Source: Candidatus Avipropionibacterium avicola (GTDB lineage Bacteria > Actinomycetota > Actinomycetes > Propionibacteriales > Propionibacteriaceae). Taken from it: a DNA stretch of 12,718 nt. The stretch is taken from contig DVLP01000314.1 in the NCBI GenBank assembly GCA_018715445.1, positions 1 to 12,718 on the forward strand, in the 5' to 3' direction. Within the stretch, counting starts at the first letter, position 1, and each line of letters begins with the position of its first letter. The translations under genes were made by a program, and so were the position numbers. Of this stretch, positions 1-11,126 are shown piece after piece. The notes under the pieces were generated by a model. It worked only from the letters and a program-made list of their open reading frames with translations, did no database searches and was not told where the DNA came from.

Positions 1-1590
1 CGCGAACTGCTGGAGAGCTTCGACCTGGAGTTCGGCGAGGACATCGGCGACGAGGAGGACCTCGCGGCCCGCCCGCCGGTCGTCACCGTCATGGGTCACG
101 TCGACCACGGCAAGACCCGCCTGTTGGACGCCATCCGCAAGGAGAACGTCGCCTCGGGTGAGGCCGGTGGCATCACCCAGACCATCGGTGCCTACCAGGT
201 CGCGACCGATGTCGACGGGGTCGAACGTCCGATCACCTTCATCGACACCCCGGGTCACGAGGCGTTCACCGCCATGCGTGCCCGTGGTGCCAAGTCGACC
301 GACATCGCCGTACTGGTGGTGGCGGCCGACGACGGCGTGATGCCGCAGACGATCGAGGCCCTGAACCACGCCACGGCGGCCGATGTGCCGGTCGTGGTCG
401 CGGTCAACAAGGTCGACAAGGAAGGCGTGGACCCGTCCAAGGTTCGCGGTCAGCTGACCGAGTACGGTCTGGTCGCCGAGGAGTACGGCGGCGAGACCAT
501 GTTCGTCGACGTCTCGGCCGCCACCGGTCAGGGTCTCGAGCAGCTGCTCGAGGCGATCGTACTGACTGCCGACGCCTCCCTCGACCTGCGGGCCAATCCC
601 GAGATGGACGCCCAGGGTGTGGCCATCGAGGCCCACCTCGACAAGGGACGCGGCCCGATGGCCACCGTCCTGGTCCAGCGCGGCAGTCTCAAGGTCGGCG
701 ACTCGATCGTGTGTGGACCGGCCCACGGCCGCGTCCGCGCCATGCTCGACGACCACGGGGACAACGTCCAGGAAGCTCCGCCCTCGATGCCGGTCCAGGT
801 CCTCGGCCTGACCAACGTCCCGGGGGCCGGTGACTCCTTCCTGGTGGTCTCGGACGACCGCACCGCACGCCAGATCGCCGACCAGCGCGAGGCCCGCAAG
901 CGGGCCGCACTGCAGGCCCAGGGCGCGCGGCGCAAGACCCTGGACCAGCTGTTCGAGCAGATGGAGAAGGGCGAGGCCAGCGAGCTGCTGCTCATCCTCA
1001 GGGGTGACGGCTCCGGTTCGGTGGAGGCCCTCGAGGACGCGTTGACCAAGATCGACGTCGGCGAGGAGGTCTCGTTGCGGGTGATCGACCGTGGTGTCGG
1101 CGCCATCACCGAGACCAACGTCACGCTGGCGGCCGCCTCCGGTGCGGTGATCATCGGCTTCAACGTCCGTGCTCAGGGCAAGGCCACCCAGCTGGCCGAC
1201 CAGGAGAATGTCGACATCCGCTACTACTCGGTGATCTACGATGCGATCGACGAGATCCAGGCGGCACTGAAGGGCATGCTCAAGCCGATCTACGAGGAGG
1301 TCCAGCTCGGCACCGCCGAGGTCCGGGCCACCTTCCGGTCGTCGAAGGCCGGTGTCATTGCCGGTTGCATGGTCACCTCGGGGATCATGCGTCGCAATGC
1401 GAAGTCGCGGCTGCTGCGCGACGGGGTCGTCATCAACGAGTCGACGGTCGAGTCGTTGCGGCGGGAGAAGGACGACGTCACCGAGGTCCGCGAGGGCTTC
1501 GAGTGTGGTCTGACCCTGCACAACTTCGACGACATCAAGGAAGGCGATGTCGTGGAGACCTTCGAGATGCGGGAGAAGGCTCGCGACTGA
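1..1590 (+). CDS. infB: Translation initiation factor IF-2, C-terminal part (5' end outside window)
   Basis: IF-2 is the GTPase that places initiator fMet-tRNA in the 30S P site and drives subunit joining. The frame is open from base 1, and 529 residues are visible. The GTPase core is complete: G1 GHVDHGKT at fragment residues 32-39, switch [10 protein letters not shown] at 56-64, G3 DTPGHE at 82-87, G4 NKVD at 136-139 and G5 SAATG starting at 172. A beta-barrel domain follows, then the alpha/beta domain III (beginning near [14 protein letters not shown], about 328), then the C2 domain that binds fMet-tRNA, ending near [15 protein letters not shown]. The variable basic N-terminal region of actinobacterial IF-2 lies upstream of the window. 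The first ATG in view (91) is internal: conserved sequence ([10 protein letters not shown]) runs through it. rbfA follows, as in most bacteria. The family call is certain. The true start cannot be seen. Confidence 0.98.
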
Positions 1591-1697: not shown

Positions 1698-2138
1698 ATG
1701 GCATCACCACGGCTGCTCAAGCTCGCCGAGCAGATCAAGAACATCACCGCCCAGATGCTGGAGCGACGGATCAAGGATCCCCGCCTGGGCTTCGTCACCC
1801 TGACCGACGTCCGCCTCACCGGCGACAGCCGGGACGCGACCATCTTCTACACCGTGATGGGCGACGACGCCGCCCGGGCCGACACCCAGGCGGCCCTGCA
1901 GTCGGCGACCGGGGTGATCCGGTCCCAGATCGGCAAGCAGCTGGGGCTGCGGTTCACCCCGACCCTCACCTTCATCCTCGATGCCGTGCCGGAGAACGCC
2001 CAGCACATCGAGGAGCTGCTGGCCCAGGCCCGACAGGGCGATGCCGAGGTGGCCGACCGCGCCGCGCAGGCCAACTACGCCGGTGAGGCCGACCCGTACA
2101 AGAAGAAGGCCGAGGAGGATCTCGACCAGGATGGCTGA
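1698..2138 (+). CDS. rbfA: 30S ribosome-binding factor A
   Basis: RbfA is a small KH-fold protein that binds the immature 30S subunit, assists 16S rRNA 5'-end maturation and helps cold adaptation. The product is 146 aa, normal for the family. Visible signatures are the N-terminal helix RLLKLAEQIKNITAQMLE, the hallmark DPRLGFVTLTDVRLT at 27-41, the strand ATIFYTVMG, and the AxG kink of the type II KH fold (A70-T71-G72) leading into RSQIGKQLGLRFTPTLTF. The acidic and basic C-terminal tail (about 113-146) is typically disordered. The start at 1698 is chosen for its strong Shine-Dalgarno and for matching the family N-terminus. The last 8 nt overlap truB, suggesting translational coupling. Neighbours infB and truB form the usual cluster. 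Confidence 0.96.
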   Translation: MASPRLLKLAEQIKNITAQMLERRIKDPRLGFVTLTDVRLTGDSRDATIFYTVMGDDAARADTQAALQSATGVIRSQIGKQLGLRFTPTLTFILDAVPENAQHIEELLAQARQGDAEVADRAAQANYAGEADPYKKKAEEDLDQDG

Positions 2139-3021
2139 GGGCGGCGACGTCTCCGGTGTGGTGGTGGTGGACAAGGCCCCCGGCCTGACCAGCCACCAGG
2201 TCGTCGGGCGCCTGCGACGGCTGCTGGGCACCCGCAAGGTCGGTCACGCCGGCACGCTCGACCCGATGGCCACCGGGGTGCTGGTCTGCGGGGTCAACCG
2301 CGCCACCCGTCTGCTGGGCCACCTGATGGTGGGCACGAAGTCGTACCGGGCCACCATCCGGTTGGGCAGCACCACCGTCACCGACGACGCCGAGGGCGAG
2401 ATCCTCACCACCCCCGGCGCCGAGAGGATCGAGCCCGAGCAGGCCCACCAGCTGTTCGCCCGATTCACCGGTGACATCGAGCAGGTCCCCACCCAGGTCT
2501 CGGCGATCAAGGTCGACGGTGTCCGTTCCTACGCCCGGGTCCGCTCCGGTGAACAGGTCGACCTGCCGGCCCGCCCGGTCACGGTGCACCGGTTCGACCT
2601 GGTGTCCTCGGCCCGTGACGGTGAGCACCTCGACCTGGAGGTCGAGGTCGACTGCAGTGCCGGCACCTACATCCGTGCCCTGGCCCGCGACCTGGGCCGC
2701 GAGCTGGGCTGCGGCGGCCATCTCACCGCCCTGCGACGGACCGCGGTCGGACCGTACGGCCTGGACCGCGCGGTCCGCATCGACCTCGACGACACTGCGC
2801 CCACCGTGATCGACATCGACCGGGTGGCCCGGGAGAACTTCACCGCGGTCCAGCTGGACCCCGAGGAGGCCGCCCGGGTGCGCCACGGCGGACGGATCGA
2901 TCCGTCCCGGTTGGCCCCCGCAGGACTGTCGGCGTTGTTCGACGACGAGCAGTTCCTCGCCCTGCACCGGGGCGACGGTTCGGTCGAGGCCGTCTTCGCC
3001 CCCGCAGGAGCCCGGACATGA
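2131..3021 (+). CDS. truB: tRNA pseudouridine(55) synthase TruB
   Basis: TruB isomerises U55 to pseudouridine in the T-arm of nearly all tRNAs and also acts as a tRNA-folding chaperone. The product is 296 aa. Signatures in order: VVVDKAPGLTSHQVV (11-25); the catalytic motif GHAGTLDPMATG, with the nucleophile Asp44 encoded at 2260-2262; KSYRATIRLG (70-79); SAIKVDGVRSYARVR (124-138); and CSAGTYIRALARDLG (175-189). A short PUA-like C-terminal domain follows, as usual in actinobacterial TruB. The ATG at 2131 overlaps the end of rbfA by 8 nt, with AGGAGG at 2113-2118 upstream. The frame is open further upstream, but that sequence is Arg/Pro-rich shadow of rbfA. The stop overlaps the next ATG as ATGA, so truB and the channel are probably co-translated. 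Confidence 0.97.
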   Translation: MAEGGDVSGVVVVDKAPGLTSHQVVGRLRRLLGTRKVGHAGTLDPMATGVLVCGVNRATRLLGHLMVGTKSYRATIRLGSTTVTDDAEGEILTTPGAERIEPEQAHQLFARFTGDIEQVPTQVSAIKVDGVRSYARVRSGEQVDLPARPVTVHRFDLVSSARDGEHLDLEVEVDCSAGTYIRALARDLGRELGCGGHLTALRRTAVGPYGLDRAVRIDLDDTAPTVIDIDRVARENFTAVQLDPEEAARVRHGGRIDPSRLAPAGLSALFDDEQFLALHRGDGSVEAVFAPAGART

Positions 3022-3881
3022 GCCTGGCCGTCCCCGACCTCCCCGATGAAGCGCCCGGCTGGCAGCGCATCGCCCACCGGGTGGTCCACCACTCGGTGGC
3101 CCAGACCCTGATCGTCACCGCGATCGTGTTGAACGGCATCGTGCTCGGGCTGCAGACCTTCGACTTCTGGTCGCCGCAGACCTATCGCATCCTCGACCTG
3201 ACCGACCGGGTCTTCCTGTCGATCTTCGTCGTCGAGATCGCCGTCCGGTTCGTGGCCTACGGTTGCCGTCCGGGTCGTTACCTGCGCAACGGGTGGAACG
3301 CCTTCGACACCGTGGTGGTCCTGTTGGCGGTGTTGCCCATCGTGGCGGGCAACTCCTCGGTGCTGCGGCTGATCCGGGTGCTGCGGATCGCCCGCCTGGC
3401 CCGGGTGATGCCCGACATCACGGTCCTGCTGGATGGTCTGCGTCGGGTCGCTCGCCCGGCCGCCACCCTGATGGCGCTGACCGCCTTGATGGTCTTCCTG
3501 TACGGGATGGTCGGGATCTTCCTGTTCGCCGAAGGGGCGCCGCAGTACTTCGGCAACATCTCGCGGGCCATGCTGACCTTGTTCGAGCTGCTCACCCTCG
3601 AAGGCTGGAACGACATCCTCCACGAGCTGATCTCGGTGCGGGGCGCGGTCGGTGGGCTCTACACCATCTCCTTCGTGCTGATCGGCACCTACATCGTGAT
3701 CAACCTGATGGTGGCCGTGGTGATCTCCAGCCTCGACGAGGCCCACAAGGAACGGATCCGTACCCGCCACGACGACACCGCCGACCTGCACGAGACCCTG
3801 GACGAGATGAACGGGCTGGTCGAGCGCCTGCAACGGCGGCTGGCCGAGCTCGAGCGCGACCGTCCCGGACCCACGCGGTAG
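3018..3881 (+). CDS. Voltage-gated cation channel, one-repeat (NaChBac/BacNav superfamily), calcium-type filter
   Basis: The 287-aa protein has six transmembrane segments and should form homotetramers in the plasma membrane. S1 is about 27-46. S2 is about 64-82, with Glu73 as gating countercharge. S3 begins at WNAFD with Asp97. S4 carries five arginines exactly three apart (117, 120, 123, 126, 129). S5 is about 149-171. The pore helix MLTLFELL leads into the filter TLEGWND (193-199, bases 3594-3614). S6 (about 212-238) has the conserved Asn229 in NLMVAVV. The C-terminal tail shows a clean heptad: L257, L261, M264, V268, L271, L275, L278, like the tetramerising coiled coil of bacterial Nav channels. 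The Shine-Dalgarno AGGAG is at 3006-3010, and the start overlaps the truB stop. The family is sure. Ion selectivity is inferred: Gly at filter position 4 and Asp at position 7 suggest Ca2+ rather than Na+. Confidence 0.93.
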   Translation: MSLAVPDLPDEAPGWQRIAHRVVHHSVAQTLIVTAIVLNGIVLGLQTFDFWSPQTYRILDLTDRVFLSIFVVEIAVRFVAYGCRPGRYLRNGWNAFDTVVVLLAVLPIVAGNSSVLRLIRVLRIARLARVMPDITVLLDGLRRVARPAATLMALTALMVFLYGMVGIFLFAEGAPQYFGNISRAMLTLFELLTLEGWNDILHELISVRGAVGGLYTISFVLIGTYIVINLMVAVVISSLDEAHKERIRTRHDDTADLHETLDEMNGLVERLQRRLAELERDRPGPTR

Positions 3882-3891: not shown

Positions 3892-4788
3892 GTGCCAGAT
3901 CCCCAGCCACCCGTCGTGATCATCGGCAACTTCGACGGCGTCCACACCGGTCACCGTGCAGTGATCGCCGAGGCCGCCCGGTACGGGCCGGTGGTGGCGA
4001 TCACCTTCTGCCCCCACCCGCTGCGGGTGCTGCGTCCCGAGGTCGCCCCGCTGCTGATCAGCACCGATGACGAGCGGCGGGCCCTGCTGGTGGAGGCCGG
4101 TGTCAGCGAGGTGGTCGAGCTGGAGTTCACCCGCGAGGTCTCGCACTGGAGCCCCGAGGAGTTCGTCTCCCGGGTGATCCTGCCGCTGCATCCCTGCCGG
4201 GTCGTGGTGGGGCAGAACTTCCGCTTCGGGCACAAGGCTGCCGGCGATCCGGCGCTGATGGCCGAGATCGGGGCCGGACACTTCGAGGTCGAGGTGCTGC
4301 CGTTGCGTCAGGGCGTCTCCTCATCGCTGGTCCGCGAGGCCCTGTCCCGCGGCGACATCGAGGCCGCCAACCAGATGCTGGGGCGCCCCTACAGCTACCG
4401 CCAGACGGTCGTGAGGGGCCACCAACGTGGACGTGAGCTCGGCTTCCCGACCGCCAACCTCCCGGTGACCCCGGAACGGGCCGCTCCGGCCGACGGCATC
4501 TATGCCGGTTGGCTGACCCGCTGCGACGAGCCCGGATCCCGGCTGCCGGCCGCCATCTCGGTGGGCACCAACCCGACCTTCGACGACGTGCTGGAGACCG
4601 TCGTGGAGGCCCACGTGCTGGACCGCACCGACCTCGAGCTGTACGGGGTGGCGGTGGCGGTGGAGTTCGTGGAACGGCTGCGCGGCAACGAGAAGTTCGA
4701 CGGGCTGGACGCCCTGATGGCCCAGATCGGCCGCGACGTCGAAGCCGTACGACGTCGTCTCGCCGAGCCTGGTTCTGGACGGGACTGA
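3892..4788 (+). CDS. ribF: Bifunctional riboflavin kinase / FAD synthetase
   Basis: RibF phosphorylates riboflavin to FMN and adenylylates FMN to FAD in the cytoplasm. The product is 298 aa. The N-terminal nucleotidyltransferase domain shows GNFDGVHTGH (12-21), TFCPHPLRVLRP (38-49), the FRFGHKAAGD stretch (110-119) and VSSSLVREAL (142-151), equivalent to the family's SSTxIR motif. The C-terminal kinase domain shows GHQRGRELGFPTANLP (176-191), the DGIYAGW strand, and the end motif VEFVERLRGNEKFDGLDAL (257-275). The N-terminus is short, because many actinobacterial RibF proteins carry 10-20 residues before this motif. No upstream in-frame start is available in the 10 nt after the channel stop, so GTG 3892 is kept. 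No Shine-Dalgarno is visible. A -10-like box just upstream suggests a leaderless mRNA in addition to operon read-through. Confidence 0.96.
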   Translation: MPDPQPPVVIIGNFDGVHTGHRAVIAEAARYGPVVAITFCPHPLRVLRPEVAPLLISTDDERRALLVEAGVSEVVELEFTREVSHWSPEEFVSRVILPLHPCRVVVGQNFRFGHKAAGDPALMAEIGAGHFEVEVLPLRQGVSSSLVREALSRGDIEAANQMLGRPYSYRQTVVRGHQRGRELGFPTANLPVTPERAAPADGIYAGWLTRCDEPGSRLPAAISVGTNPTFDDVLETVVEAHVLDRTDLELYGVAVAVEFVERLRGNEKFDGLDALMAQIGRDVEAVRRRLAEPGSGRD

Positions 4789-4808: not shown

Positions 4809-5867
4809 ATGAGCACCGAAGAACGACTGGCCGTCTTCCTGGACTACGAGAACCTCGCCCTCGGCGCGCGCGACCACCTCGGTGGGATGACCTTCGACTT
4901 CGGTCCGATCGCCGATGCGCTGGCCCTGCGGGGACGGGTGGTGACCCGACGTGCGTACGCCGACTGGTCCTACTTCGACGAGGACCGTCGCGCCCTCACC
5001 CGCCACCAGGTCGAGCTGATCGAGATGCCGCAACGCATGGGGGCCTCGCGCAAGAACGCCGCCGACATCAAGATGGTGGTCGACGCGATCGAGATGGCCT
5101 TCGAGCGTGACTACATCTCCACCTTCGTCATGTGCACCGGCGACAGCGACTTCTCGCCGTTGGTCCACAAGCTGCGCGAACTCAACAAGTTCGTGATCGG
5201 GGTCGGTGTCGAGGACTCCACCTCGCGGTTGTTGCCGCCGGCCTGTGACGAGTTCCTGTTCTACGACCGCCTGGAAGGGGTCGACGTCCCCGAGAACGAC
5301 ACCCACGGCAAGGACGTCGCCAAGGGCACTGCCCGCAAGAAGGACGTTCCGGAGAAGGACGTCCCCGCGGAGGAGCCGGAACCGAGCGATGCCCCGGCGG
5401 ACCTGGACGTCTTCGTCGCCCAGACCCTGGCCGGACTGCAGTCCTCGGGCAGCAACACCCCGACCGCCTCGGTGCTGAAGCGCACCCTGCTGCGACGCGA
5501 TCCGACCTTCAGCGAGTCCGACCACGGCTTCCGTTCCTTCGGCGAGGTCGTCAAGGACCTGTCCGCCCGCGGGATCATCGACCTCGCTCCCGGTCCGGCG
5601 GCCGGCGACCCGGAGCTCAGCCTGCCCGAGCAGGGGGAGCGGCACGGAGCCTTCGCGCTGCTACGTGAGGTGGTGGCCGCGGCCTCGGGCGAGGTCGCCA
5701 TGTCGGGCCTGAAGGACCAACTGCGCAAGCGCCGCCCGGACTTCAGCGAGAAGAGCCTGGGCTATCGCAACTTCCTGCAGTTCTGCCGTGACGCCGATGA
5801 GGCCGGTGTGGTCGACCTGCGCTGGGACGATGCCTCGGAGGGCTACTTCGTCGAGGTCGCCGGCTGA
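4809..5867 (+). CDS. NYN (PIN-like) domain protein with two C-terminal LOTUS/OST-HTH-like domains
   Basis: The 352-aa protein is probably a cytoplasmic RNase or RNA-binding factor. Residues 1-156 form a NYN/LabA (DUF88-type) domain with the acidic residues expected of a metal-dependent PIN-like nuclease: Asp12 in FLDYENLA, Asp86 in AADIKMVVDA, and Asp112 and Asp114 in CTGDSDFSPLV. A charged linker (about 157-197) contains three KDV units. Two related winged-helix segments follow, about 198-262 and 277-349; FSESDHGFRSFGEVVKDL aligns with FSEKSLGYRNFLQFCRDA. LOTUS domains are known RNA binders in eukaryotic and bacterial proteins. The frame is open upstream to 4509 inside ribF, but that sequence is shadow; ATG 4809 fits the domain and the promoter. 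The target RNA is unknown. A purely structural or regulatory role is possible, although the acidic residues are intact. Confidence 0.88.
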   Translation: MSTEERLAVFLDYENLALGARDHLGGMTFDFGPIADALALRGRVVTRRAYADWSYFDEDRRALTRHQVELIEMPQRMGASRKNAADIKMVVDAIEMAFERDYISTFVMCTGDSDFSPLVHKLRELNKFVIGVGVEDSTSRLLPPACDEFLFYDRLEGVDVPENDTHGKDVAKGTARKKDVPEKDVPAEEPEPSDAPADLDVFVAQTLAGLQSSGSNTPTASVLKRTLLRRDPTFSESDHGFRSFGEVVKDLSARGIIDLAPGPAAGDPELSLPEQGERHGAFALLREVVAAASGEVAMSGLKDQLRKRRPDFSEKSLGYRNFLQFCRDADEAGVVDLRWDDASEGYFVEVAG

Positions 5868-7247: not shown

Positions 7248-7742
7248 GTGTACCGCTTCACCTACACCAGGGCGGCGATCAGCAAGCTGCTCCTGTTGAG
7301 TGTGCTCTACACCGTCGTGGCCCTGTTGTGGACGCTGCTGGCGGTCGTGACCCAGTTCCTCGACACCACCGTGTTCAGCTGGTTCGGTTGGCCGGCGGGG
7401 GCGATGGCTGTCGTCAGCATCATGTACTGGATCGGGTGGTTCCAGACCCGGCGTGACCCGGTTGCCCTGGTGGTCGATGCCGAGGGCATCAGCCTGCACC
7501 CGAGCACCGGGCGACGCTTCGTGATGCCGTGGGCCCGATCGCAGGATCTCGCCTGGGGCAGCTATCTGGGACAGGGCACGCTCAAGCTGGGTGGGGGACC
7601 GGGACGCATGATCGGCCTCAATGCCCTGGAGCAGGACCCGCACCTGCTGGTCCAGGCGATCATGCACTTCCGAGGCGCACCGCCGGCCGGGCAGCCGCCG
7701 CCCGTGCTCGGCCAGCGCCCGGGAGGCGGCCCCCATGGTTGA
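7248..7742 (+). CDS. Small membrane protein with two TM helices and a PH-like C-terminal domain
   Basis: The 164-aa protein is of unknown function. Hydrophobic segments at about 13-37 and 46-66 should form a membrane hairpin, and the aromatic turn between them contains FSWFGWPAG. Residues about 70-143 (VALVVDAEGISLH, RRFVMPWARSQDLAWG, then GRMIGLNALEQDPHLLVQAI) have the strand-then-PWxxxxD pattern of bacterial PH-like domains such as those in YcxB/STM3941-type proteins. That is a resemblance, not a firm assignment. The last 20 residues are Pro/Gly-rich. The start is GTG, 13 nt after the rpsO stop, with no Shine-Dalgarno, so it may depend on reinitiation. Its end overlaps the glycosyltransferase start by 8 nt, which ties it to the envelope cassette. 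Confidence 0.75.
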   Translation: MYRFTYTRAAISKLLLLSVLYTVVALLWTLLAVVTQFLDTTVFSWFGWPAGAMAVVSIMYWIGWFQTRRDPVALVVDAEGISLHPSTGRRFVMPWARSQDLAWGSYLGQGTLKLGGGPGRMIGLNALEQDPHLLVQAIMHFRGAPPAGQPPPVLGQRPGGGPHG

Positions 7743-8622
7743 GAAGCTGCCGTCGTACGGCGTCGTCGTGCTCACCCAGGGCACCCGGCCCCACGACCTG
7801 CGCCGCGGTCTGGAGTCCGTGCTGGCCCAGCGCGATGTCGAGACCGACATCGTGGTGGTCGGCAACGGCTGGGTGCCGGTCGACCTGCCCGACGGGGTCC
7901 GAGGGATCCACCTGCCCGACAACCTGGGCATCCCGGCCGGGCGCAATGCCGGCGTGCCCCACGTGGACGGGGAGTACCTGTTCTTCCTCGACGACGACGC
8001 CTGGCTGCTCGACGACGACTTCCTGGCCCGCTGTGCCCAGTCCTTCGCTGCCGACCCGAGCCTGGGGATGATCCAGCCCCGGATCGAGGACCCGAGCGCC
8101 GACGAACTGCCGTCGCGGTGGATCCCGCGCCTGCGCAAGGGCAGCCCGCACCAGTCCTCCAACGTCTTCTCCGTGGTGGAGATGGCGGTGGCCGTGCGCC
8201 GCGACGTGTTCGACGCCACCCTGGGCTGGCCCGCCCCGTTCTTCTACGCCCACGAGGGCATCGAGCTGGCCTGGCGGGTGTGGGGGGTCGGCAGCCGTAC
8301 GGTCTATCGCGGTGACCTGCGCGCCGGACACCCGGTGATCGACCCGCGCCGCCACGGCGACTACTTCGTCAAGAACGCACGCAACCGGGTCTGGCTGGCC
8401 CGGCGCAACCTGCGCTGGCCGGTCAGCTGGGCCTATGTCGGCTCCTGGACCCTGGTGCAGTTGGTCCGGTGGCGGCGCCGCCCGGACTACCTCAAGCCGT
8501 GGTTCGCCGGCTGGAAGCAGGGCTGGACCACCAGCCCGTGGGCACCCGGTGAGCCGCACCGCAAGCTGTCCTGGGCGACCCATCTGCGGATGGGGCGCGC
8601 CGGTCGGTGGCCGGTGATCTGA
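7735..8622 (+). CDS. Family 2 (GT-A) glycosyltransferase, rhamnosyl/galactofuranosyl-transferase-like
   Basis: The 295-aa enzyme should transfer a sugar from a nucleotide-sugar to an envelope acceptor on the cytoplasmic face of the membrane. The GT-A fold is visible: YGVVVLTQGTRP (8-19) as first strand and loop, the DIVVVGNG strand (38-45), NLGIPAGRNAGV (63-74), the metal-binding DxD-type motif FFLDDDAWLL (83-92), and a later acidic motif YAHEGIELAWRVW (171-183) with the candidate catalytic base in HEGIE. These are typical of WbbL/GlfT-like GT2 enzymes. The C-terminus (about 210-265) is rich in Arg and Trp with amphipathic character and may associate with the membrane. There is no signal peptide. 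The start at ATG 7735 has GGGAGG at 7721-7726 and overlaps the previous gene by 8 nt. Donor and acceptor cannot be told from sequence. Confidence 0.88.
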   Translation: MVEKLPSYGVVVLTQGTRPHDLRRGLESVLAQRDVETDIVVVGNGWVPVDLPDGVRGIHLPDNLGIPAGRNAGVPHVDGEYLFFLDDDAWLLDDDFLARCAQSFAADPSLGMIQPRIEDPSADELPSRWIPRLRKGSPHQSSNVFSVVEMAVAVRRDVFDATLGWPAPFFYAHEGIELAWRVWGVGSRTVYRGDLRAGHPVIDPRRHGDYFVKNARNRVWLARRNLRWPVSWAYVGSWTLVQLVRWRRRPDYLKPWFAGWKQGWTTSPWAPGEPHRKLSWATHLRMGRAGRWPVI

Positions 8623-8626
8623 CCGC

Positions 8627-8632
8627 TACAGT
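8627..8632 (+). promoter_or_regulatory. Candidate -10 box of the CDP-alcohol phosphatidyltransferase-like gene
   Basis: TACAGT is a close match to the -10 consensus and lies 7 nt before GTG 8640, again the leaderless spacing. No strong -35 is visible. It supports 8640 as the start of the next gene over in-frame GTGs at 8607 and 8631. Confidence 0.42.
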
Positions 8633-8639
8633 GAACCGC

Positions 8640-9461
8640 GTGACATCTGCCCGGCCGACGATCGCGGAACTGCGTGAGGTCTCCCAGCCGCCGACCGTCC
8701 GGGGGCGCAAGAATGCCGAGCACTGGTCGGGGGAGTACCTGCGCCACGGCTCGTTGTACCTGACCCGGCTGTTGGTGCCGACCCCGTTGCGCCCCAACGG
8801 GGTGACGGTGCTGATGATGCTGTCCGGCTGGTGCATCGCGGGCTCGCTGCTGGTGCCCGGCATCGTCGGGCCGCTGCTGGCACTGTTCTTCTCCCAGGTC
8901 CAGATGTACCTCGACTGCGTCGACGGTGAACTGGCCCGCTGGCGCAAGCAGTTCAGCCCGGCCGGGGTCTACCTGGACCGGATCGCGCACTACACCACCG
9001 AGGGCTTCGTCGGACTGGCCCTCGGCCTGCGCGCCGCCGGGTTCATCGGCTCCGATCCCGAGCCCGGTGAGTTGTGGATGTACGCCTTCCTCGGCGCGAT
9101 CCTGATGGCCGGGATCATGCTCAACAAGGCCGTGAACGACCTGGTCCACGTGGCGCGGGCCTTCAACGGGATGGACCGGCTGCCCGACACCGCCGCGGCC
9201 AAGACGGTGCCGGCCCGGACCCTGATCGGCACCCTGCGCCGGGCGGCCCGGTTCCTGCCGTTCCACCGCATCTTCCACTCCGTCGAGTTGAGCCTGGTGG
9301 CGGTCGGGGTGGCCGTGGTGGGCCTGTTCGTCGGGGACCTGACGGCCTTCCGGGTGGCGGTGTGGGTGCTGGCACCGGTGATCTGGGTCGTGGTCGCCGG
9401 ACACCTGCTGGCCGTGGTCGCCTCGCCGCGGCTGCGGGCCACGACCGAACGGACCGACTGA
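8640..9461 (+). CDS. CDP-alcohol phosphatidyltransferase family protein with atypical active site
   Basis: This is a 273-aa polytopic membrane protein with about six helices. The family swaps CMP on a CDP-activated alcohol for another hydroxyl acceptor. The signature DxxDGxxARx8GxxxDxxxD is present with one change: Asp92, Asp95, Gly96, Ala99, Arg100, Gly109 and Asp113 are all in place, but the final Asp is His117 (CAC at 8988-8990). The spacing is exact, so this is a substitution and not a shift. The N-terminal stretch (TIAELREVSQPP, then RNAEHWSGEYL) is soluble and probably lies along the membrane. A hydrophobic C-terminal pair spans about 210-262. The start is chosen at 8640 by its -10 box; 8607 (16-nt overlap with the upstream gene) and 8631 are possible. 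Substrates are unknown. It is 3 nt from the TagF-like gene and probably acts with it. Confidence 0.85.
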   Translation: MTSARPTIAELREVSQPPTVRGRKNAEHWSGEYLRHGSLYLTRLLVPTPLRPNGVTVLMMLSGWCIAGSLLVPGIVGPLLALFFSQVQMYLDCVDGELARWRKQFSPAGVYLDRIAHYTTEGFVGLALGLRAAGFIGSDPEPGELWMYAFLGAILMAGIMLNKAVNDLVHVARAFNGMDRLPDTAAAKTVPARTLIGTLRRAARFLPFHRIFHSVELSLVAVGVAVVGLFVGDLTAFRVAVWVLAPVIWVVVAGHLLAVVASPRLRATTERTD

Positions 9462-9464
9462 GCC

Positions 9465-11126
9465 ATGGGACGGATGCGCAGGCTCGGAGTCGGTTCGCTG
9501 ACGGTGCTGGGGCTGGCGGCGCTGGTCGCGGTCCTGGTGGTCGCGGCCTCGATCGGGCTGGCGCTGCCGGTGGTGGCGGTGCTGGTCACCGGGGTCGCCC
9601 TGGCGGTGCTGGCCGGGCTGGCCGCCGCCGGACCGGGCCACCTGGTCGTGCTCGTTGGGGCCGGGACCGCGCTGGCGGTGGCACTCGCCCGGGCCGAACG
9701 CCTCGGACCGGGTTTCGCGATCGCCGTCGCCCTGGTCATCGCCGCGGCTGCGGCCGACGAACCGCTGGCCCGCCGACTGGCCCCGACCGTACGGACCGCG
9801 CAACTGCCCGGGGTCCGCTCCGACCTGCGCCCCAGTGGCGAACGGCCCTTCCTGGGGTCGGTGACGATCGCGGTGGCCCTGAGCGGGATCGCCGCGGCCC
9901 TGTCGCCACTGCTCGCCCCGGACTCGGTCGGCCTGCAGGTGGTCGGCGCCCTCGTCGCGCTGGTCGTGGCCGTCCTCGTCGGCGCGGCGGCGCTGCGGCT
10001 GCGCACGATGGTGCGCGCCATCGGTGACGGCACCGCCGACCATGCGGTGACCGCCGCCCTGCAGGCGTACGCGCCGGAGTTCGTGCTGCACTTCTCCGGT
10101 CCTGTCGAGGGCGACTACCAGATCCGGATGTGGCTGCCGTACCTGTCCCGACTCGATCGTCGCTGGGTGATCCTGACCCGGGACCACCGGATGCTCGCCC
10201 GCGCCGCCGACCTCGACGGGCAGGTGCCGATGGTGTCGTGTCCGCGGCTGTCGGCCCTCGACGGATGCATGGTCGACTCGATCCGGGCGGTCTTCCACGT
10301 CAACACCGACCACCAGTGCGTCGACCTGGTGCGCTTCGCCGACCGGACCCAGGTCCAGCTCAACCACGGCGACTCCGACAAGCCGTCGAGCCGGCACCCG
10401 ATGATCGCGATGTTCGACCAGGTCTTCGTGGCCGGGCAGGCCGCCATCGACCGGTTCGTCGAGCACGGCGTGACGATCCCGCCCGAGAAGTTCGTGGTCG
10501 TCGGACGGCCCCAGGTCGCCGACATCGTGGCCACCAATGTCGAGCCGCACGACCAGGTGAGCGTGCTGTACGCCCCGACCTGGCGCGGGGGCACCACCGA
10601 CATGTCTCTCAGCTCGCTGGCCCGCGGCGTGGAGGTGGTCGAGGCCCTGCTGGGGCTCGGCGTACGGGTGATGTTCCGCCCGCACCCGTACTCGTTGCGT
10701 GAGGCCGGCTCGGCCGCTGCGGTGGCCCGGATCGATGCCCGCCTGGCCGCGGCCGGCCAGCAGCACCTGGCCAGCAAGCAGACCGTCACCGGCTCGATGG
10801 CCGACTGGTTCAACCGCAGTGACGCCCTGGTCGGTGACGTCTCCAGCGTGCCTGTCGACTACCTGCAGTCCGGCAAGCCATTGGCGGTCACCGACCTCGG
10901 TGACCCCGGCGAGAGCGCATCCGGTGCGAACACCTCCGGGATCCTGCAGGGGGCCTACGTGCTGCACCTCGGTGGCGACCTGCACGCCCCGCTGGCCGCC
11001 ATGGTCGGCGACGACCCACTGGCCGAGCAGCGGGCCCGGGTCCGGACCCACTACCTGGGCGACATCCCCACCGACGAGCTGGTGCCGCACTTCCTGGCGG
11101 CGGCCACGGCGGCCATCGACGGCTGA
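9465..11126 (+). CDS. CDP-glycerol glycerophosphotransferase (TagB/TagF-like) with N-terminal membrane domain
   Basis: The 553-aa protein has a membrane domain and a GT-B-like catalytic domain. Residues about 8-52, 57-76, 83-97, 130-150 and 155-177 are hydrophobic, giving roughly five or six helices. From about 190 the sequence matches the TagB/TagF family, which adds glycerol-phosphate or related polyol-phosphate from a CDP-polyol to a lipid-linked acceptor. Motifs are NHGDSDKPSS (300-309, containing the conserved HG..xK), a VGRP turn (346-349), YAPTWRGG (369-376), FRPHPYS (404-410) and GDVSSVPVDYLQSGKP (457-472). The expected His residues are present. ATG 9465 is 3 nt after the previous stop; ATG 9474 is an alternative. 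No clear Shine-Dalgarno is seen, so coupling to the upstream gene is likely. The fused membrane domain is unusual, since TagF itself is peripheral. Confidence 0.86.
   Translation: MGRMRRLGVGSLTVLGLAALVAVLVVAASIGLALPVVAVLVTGVALAVLAGLAAAGPGHLVVLVGAGTALAVALARAERLGPGFAIAVALVIAAAAADEPLARRLAPTVRTAQLPGVRSDLRPSGERPFLGSVTIAVALSGIAAALSPLLAPDSVGLQVVGALVALVVAVLVGAAALRLRTMVRAIGDGTADHAVTAALQAYAPEFVLHFSGPVEGDYQIRMWLPYLSRLDRRWVILTRDHRMLARAADLDGQVPMVSCPRLSALDGCMVDSIRAVFHVNTDHQCVDLVRFADRTQVQLNHGDSDKPSSRHPMIAMFDQVFVAGQAAIDRFVEHGVTIPPEKFVVVGRPQVADIVATNVEPHDQVSVLYAPTWRGGTTDMSLSSLARGVEVVEALLGLGVRVMFRPHPYSLREAGSAAAVARIDARLAAAGQQHLASKQTVTGSMADWFNRSDALVGDVSSVPVDYLQSGKPLAVTDLGDPGESASGANTSGILQGAYVLHLGGDLHAPLAAMVGDDPLAEQRARVRTHYLGDIPTDELVPHFLAAATAAIDG

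Follow-up and report, generated by a model that had tools for sequence, protein, structure and literature searches.

The window, by which we mean the whole stretch of 12,718 nucleotides that was analysed, carries on one strand the genes infB, rbfA, truB, a channel gene and ribF. The first of these (91..1590, +; PF11987) encodes the C-terminal part of IF-2, its listed ATG being mechanical, and is followed after a gap of 107 bases by rbfA (1698..2138, +; PF02033, E 1.4e-31) and by truB (2131..3021, +; PF01509, E 3.2e-50), two genes that overlap by 8 bases with the start codons that we chose. The channel gene (3018..3881, +) overlaps truB by 4 bases, in the motif ATGA at 3018-3021, and a putative ribosome-binding site AGGAG (3006..3010, +) lies 7 bases upstream of its ATG. 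Its stop is separated by 10 bases from ribF (3892..4788, +; PF01687, PF06574), the gene for FAD synthetase / riboflavin kinase. Directly after ribF, a gene at 4809-5867 (+) encodes a protein with an NYN nuclease-type domain and an OST-HTH/LOTUS domain; glycosyltransferase, CDP-alcohol phosphotransferase and glycerophosphotransferase genes at 7705-11126 (+) form a possible teichoic-acid-like polymer cluster.

The channel frame is complete and encodes 287 amino acids, with no internal stop. Residues 26-245 match the Pfam family Ion_trans (PF00520, E 6.4e-44), and an AlphaFold2 model of the monomer (pLDDT 90.8) matches the folds of NavMs, NavAb and NaChBac in the PDB: six helices, with an S1-S4 sensor and an S5-P-S6 pore. 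The S4 stretch RLIRVLRIARLAR (R117-R129; 3366..3404, +) places five arginines at every third residue, R117, R120, R123, R126 and R129, of which the first four are invariant in an alignment of 32 rows. The selectivity filter TLEGWND occupies residues 193-199 (3594..3614, +), with Gly196 in position 4, after the filter Glu (3603..3605, +). The P2 helix (197-208 in the model) and the start of the P2-S6 loop follow at residues 197-210 (3606..3647, +), where the measured spacing leaves no place for a long extracellular insert. S6 continues as a single modelled helix over residues 210-281 (3645..3860, +), whose tail after S6 is a putative coiled coil. The initial annotation described a complete one-repeat channel with six transmembrane helices, five S4 arginines and this filter, and the reading frame, the Pfam match and the model bear it out. 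The frame is not a chance one: it is matched by 257 proteins at E <= 1e-3 (the window's own, P0002, included), among them a protein 83% identical (P0003), and an orthologue from the same genus, 74% identical, lies in the same gene order.

Presence and absence at the truB-ribF site

Ten loci of the TLEGWN clade were read in other genomes (L067-L076). Four of them have the order truB-channel-ribF (L067, L068, L069 and L070, from genera g1, g19, g19 and g15 respectively), so that the place of the channel beside truB, already pointed out in the initial annotation, is common to three genera. The other six have none of the neighbours of the window in the stretch read, although one of these, L074, says little, being on a contig of 4.8 kb. 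The same annotation proposed translational coupling to truB. The ATGA overlap makes this plausible in the window; in the four other truB-channel-ribF loci, the truB stop and the channel start form no ATGA, and coupling as a conserved arrangement was rejected.

Of the 17 genomes searched for truB and ribF, 9 have the aligned ends of the two genes less than 200 bases from each other. Among the 13 of these 17 that have no channel match, 8 show this close spacing, including two of genus g19 (G018, G073), a genus in which two other genomes (G163, G167) have the channel at that very site. Such close sites that lack the channel, even within one genus, indicate that the gene comes and goes here, as an accessory to the row rbfA-truB-ribF.

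The distribution of the gene is patchy. Matches at E <= 1e-3 are found in 16 of 197 genomes of the same family, and the 11 matches that reach 40% identity in these genomes, the window included, all have the filter TLEGWN. At E <= 1e-10, matches are found in 28 of 293 genomes of the order and in 15 of 396 genomes of the phylum, counting the genome of the window, whose assembly (G000) is 91% complete. A search of genome contigs returned two Propionibacteriaceae loci. In two close orthologues from one genus (L012 in G105, L013 in G039), the stretch read contains an in-frame TGA before S1, so that these two genes may be broken or start oddly; the frame of the window and the eight other close matches (at least 40% identity) have no internal stop. 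A mobile origin was also considered, and nothing suggests carriage by phages or plasmids: 38 plasmid records match, all below 60% identity, and a single phage record matches over residues 19-110 only.

The genome of the window contains a second one-repeat channel (L004 1405-2238; G000:C409:6904-7524), with filter IGDGWAV. By eye, its neighbours resemble murI and rph, and it is like channel L022 of a genome of the same genus.

The selectivity filter among relatives

A first protein search scored 8000 candidates and retained the 257 proteins mentioned above, the best 120 of which were listed. Together with the query they provide 121 filters, in which the query is counted twice because one of the listed proteins (P0002) is the window's own. 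TLEGWN followed by S, T, E, Q, D or A accounts for 109 filters, TLEAWS followed by D or E for 7, and TLEGWSD for 2, with TLEGWIE, TLKGWNT and TLENFPA once each. TLKGWNT, in which Lys replaces the filter Glu of a close homologue (P0046), could be a sequence error. Many of the relatives among the matches listed are automatically annotated as voltage-gated sodium channels.

Removing P0002 and one row shorter than 240 amino acids leaves 119 aligned homologues. Position 4 is Gly in 111 rows, Ala in 7 and Asn in 1; position 6 is Asn in 108, Ser in 9, Ile in 1 and Pro in 1. Position 7 is shared between Ser (36), Thr (28), Asp (18), Glu (17), Gln (15) and Ala (5), and is never Met. The codons for Gly196 among 10 loci are GGC (6), GGG (2), GGA (1) and GGT (1); an eleventh locus, L053, does not fit the pattern used. 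A Gly kept in 111 of 119 rows while its codon varies is a clade trait that, judging from these alignments, looks constrained; the Gly after the filter Glu, to which the initial annotation pointed, is conserved over a large actinobacterial clade.

The same annotation took Asp199 as a second argument for calcium, and here it fails. With an entropy of 2.39, Asp199 is the most variable of residues 182-206 and ranks 215th of 287 in conservation, so that we rejected it as a determinant at the level of the family. What the clade conserves is TLEGWN, and not the full TLEGWND; Asn198, in position 6, had been overlooked.

Further away, the filter changes more freely. Starting from a distant member (P0118), another search gave 1544 hits, the best 120 of which were listed: 48 of 118 further proteins have Gly in position 4, and the remaining ones Asn, Ser, Glu, Gln, Thr, Asp or Ala. 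Even the filter Trp is absent in several related actinobacterial channels (L026, L027, L057-L059, L061-L065, P0121, P0214, P0243), whose filters read TLENLP, TLENFP, SLEGLP, SLETLP, TLDGLG, TLDGLT or TLDGIG. Five uncharacterised metagenome proteins (P0240, P0245-P0248) carry exactly TLEGWVD, the filter of CavMr, and lack a long P2-S6 loop.

Relationship to characterised channels

We computed a tree with IQ-TREE on 86 rows of our choice and 213 columns. It is unrooted, the filter columns were removed, and L028 (TFEDWTD), chosen by filter resemblance alone, stands in for the four published members of the AnclNav group, CavMr and NavPp among them. On one side of a branch with support 100/99 lie 63 rows of the actinobacterial family, including the window, and on the other side 23 rows: NavAb, NavMs, NaChBac, 4bgn (presumably NavCt), three plasmid channels with filter TLESWSM, 13 other actinobacterial channels, L028, and two of the TLEGWVD proteins (P0245, P0246). 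A second branch (98/95) separates 20 rows, including the canonical channels, from L028, P0245, P0246 and the 63-row family. The channel of the window thus lies outside the clade of NavAb, NavMs and NaChBac, and its family is separated from canonical sodium channels in this tree. L028, P0245 and P0246 lie between the two, across the 100/99 branch from the family of the window, although the place of L028 is unsure because its branch is very long. Another TLEGWVD protein, P0240, falls inside the wider family.

The window's own clade comprises 28 rows, all TLEGWN (support 98/94). Over the whole tree, changes between Gly and another residue in position 4 number at least 8. The AU test rejects a single clade made of all 35 TLEGWN rows (p 4e-37, on the rows that we picked and with the filter removed).

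Other comparisons bring the window closer to canonical channels. The best one-repeat matches in the PDB by sequence are NavMs, 4bgn and NaChBac. The distance from the filter Thr to the S6 Asn is 35 residues in 70 of the 86 tree rows, which include most of the family; a count of 36 is found in the seven canonical rows, in L017 and L066, and in the window together with the four rows nearest to it. The filter itself is different: canonical channels (NavAb, NavMs, NaChBac, NavCt) have TLESWxxG, the window TLEGWND. Cav3 T-type channels are the top PDB matches overall, with scores summed over repeats; the pore of their repeat I, with filter TLEGWVD, aligns with that of the window, but that repeat is one of four unequal repeats of a eukaryotic channel of 24 helices.

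Two channels of the AnclNav group (PMC7041947) also resemble that of the window. CavMr, from Meiothermus ruber, is a one-repeat prokaryotic voltage-gated channel with a TLEGWxD filter and the same Gly in position 4. It differs from the window by a Val in position 6, where the window has Asn198 and its family nearly always Asn; by position 7, which is free to vary in the window's family; and by a P2-S6 loop, reported to carry a disulfide, that is 17 residues longer than that of NaChBac. In the published numbering, the filter Thr is 57 residues from the position of NaChBac Gly229 in CavMr, and 40 both in NaChBac and in the window, which lacks the extension. NavPp, from Plesiocystis pacifica, has one repeat and a filter of seven residues that also ends in Asp, TLEDWTD; however, its position 4 is Asp, and it is sodium selective and blocked by calcium. 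Neither Meiothermus nor Plesiocystis is named among the matches listed (best 120 of 257, best 120 of 1544, and 11 of 11), most of which are nameless.

Calcium or sodium

Published measurements on these pores disagree. According to PMC7041947, the permeability ratio PCa/PNa of CavMr is 218 in the reference G240A, and 11.9, 7.7, 40.1 and 144 in mutants G4S, G4D, V6T and D7M; for NavPp, it is 0.31 in T232A and 41.4 in D4G. Gly in position 4 is there the key determinant of calcium selectivity in both channels, and Asp in position 7 is unneeded. The pattern of the window's family, with position 4 held and position 7 drifting, agrees with CavMr, which needs Gly4 and Val6 and can do without Asp7. The filter of the window is one residue away from TLEGWVD and one from TLEGWTD, the filter of both V6T and D4G. 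A straight read-across from these measured filters would give a preference for calcium, perhaps tens-fold, with a possible leakage of potassium. The beacon rule (PMC10120453) associates Gly in this position with calcium selectivity in one-domain channels, and it predicts such selectivity here.

In our reading, the window probably encodes a calcium-preferring voltage-gated channel (probability roughly 0.6), in an uncharacterised clade whose sisters naturally vary the filter. Four subunits would form a homotetramer activated by depolarisation, the model being that of a monomer. Their Glu195 residues may form a high-field ring, Gly196 would keep the outer mouth wide and flexible enough for hydrated calcium to enter and bind, and Asn198 would line the mouth. 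Calcium would then pass in preference to sodium, as in CavMr but probably less exclusively, and short pulses admitted on depolarisation could be cleared by ordinary cation exchangers. The genome of the window has two cation-exchanger loci (PF01699), a weak support since the family is also present in 11 of 14 control genomes, and no match to the EF-hand family PF13499.

The main evidence against the calcium reading is NavAb S178G, whose TLEGW filter is selective for lithium and sodium, with PCa/PNa < 0.01 (PMC12919392). The window channel could likewise prefer sodium, or lithium and sodium, its Gly being tolerated in a sodium-type pore and conferring no calcium selectivity: the best one-repeat sequence matches and the total spacing from filter to S6, both those of canonical channels, speak for this. 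Several other points count against calcium: the Asn that replaces Val6 of CavMr, where the V6T change cuts the ratio to 40; the missing long loop; the lack of an EF-hand match (PF13499) in the genome; the sodium-channel annotations of relatives; and the fact that, in NaChBac and NavAb, calcium selectivity reportedly came from added Asp residues. However, the backbone into which S178G was introduced has the filter TLESWSM, and in NavAb the replacement of Met181, in position 7, brings PCa/PNa to 0.36-0.47 (0.47 for S178G with M181A; PMC12919392). Since that Met is found in none of the 119 rows and the family lies apart from the canonical channels in the tree, the NavAb result may not transfer; NavAb is a poorer guide, though not an irrelevant one, because the window shares the canonical spacing of 36. 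We consider a sodium channel unlikely.

A poorly selective channel, passing calcium, sodium and potassium alike for depolarisation or for osmotic or pH adjustment and not for calcium signalling, would fit the free variation of position 7 and the PK/PNa of 0.69-0.81 reported for TLEGWTD filters despite their PCa/PNa of about 40 (PMC7041947). The retention of Gly and Asn in positions 4 and 6 speaks instead of a constrained selectivity, and makes this quite improbable. Finally, the gene could be a remnant without conducting function that simply travels with truB and ribF. Its absence from the same site in relatives, the low number of close matches and the two orthologues with an in-frame TGA could be read that way, but the uninterrupted frames of the window and eight others, the conserved residues of S4, filter and S6, and Gly codons that differ synonymously across loci leave it very little credit.

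The proposal of a native calcium channel is partly supported, by a Gly kept across a clade that stands apart from canonical sodium channels, but not by Asp199. As a large actinobacterial group shares the TLEGW pore, the channel makes a good candidate for a second type of calcium channel native to bacteria, CavMr being called the only identified prokaryotic Cav in a 2026 paper (PMC12919392). The sequences also invite a broader reading, to which we give slightly less than even chances: a second and separate family of voltage-gated calcium channels native to prokaryotes may exist in the Actinomycetota, with TLEGWN in a large clade and again in a second one, and with sister groups that replaced the Gly, the Asn and even the Trp (TLENWP, TLENLP, TLEAWS, TLDGLG). 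This group is large and apparently unstudied: our search of the open-access literature found no study of actinobacterial TLEGWN channels among the papers listed.

Gly in position 4 gives calcium selectivity in CavMr and NavPp (PMC7041947), but not in NavAb (PMC12919392). A large family that conserves this Gly outside the canonical clade, and whose close sisters vary positions 4, 6 and 7, would make it possible to ask which features of the backbone make the Gly work. If the calcium reading is true, the sister filters would be a natural mutagenesis series of calcium and sodium selectivity in homotetramers, and the question of voltage-driven calcium entry would be raised for the Actinomycetota.
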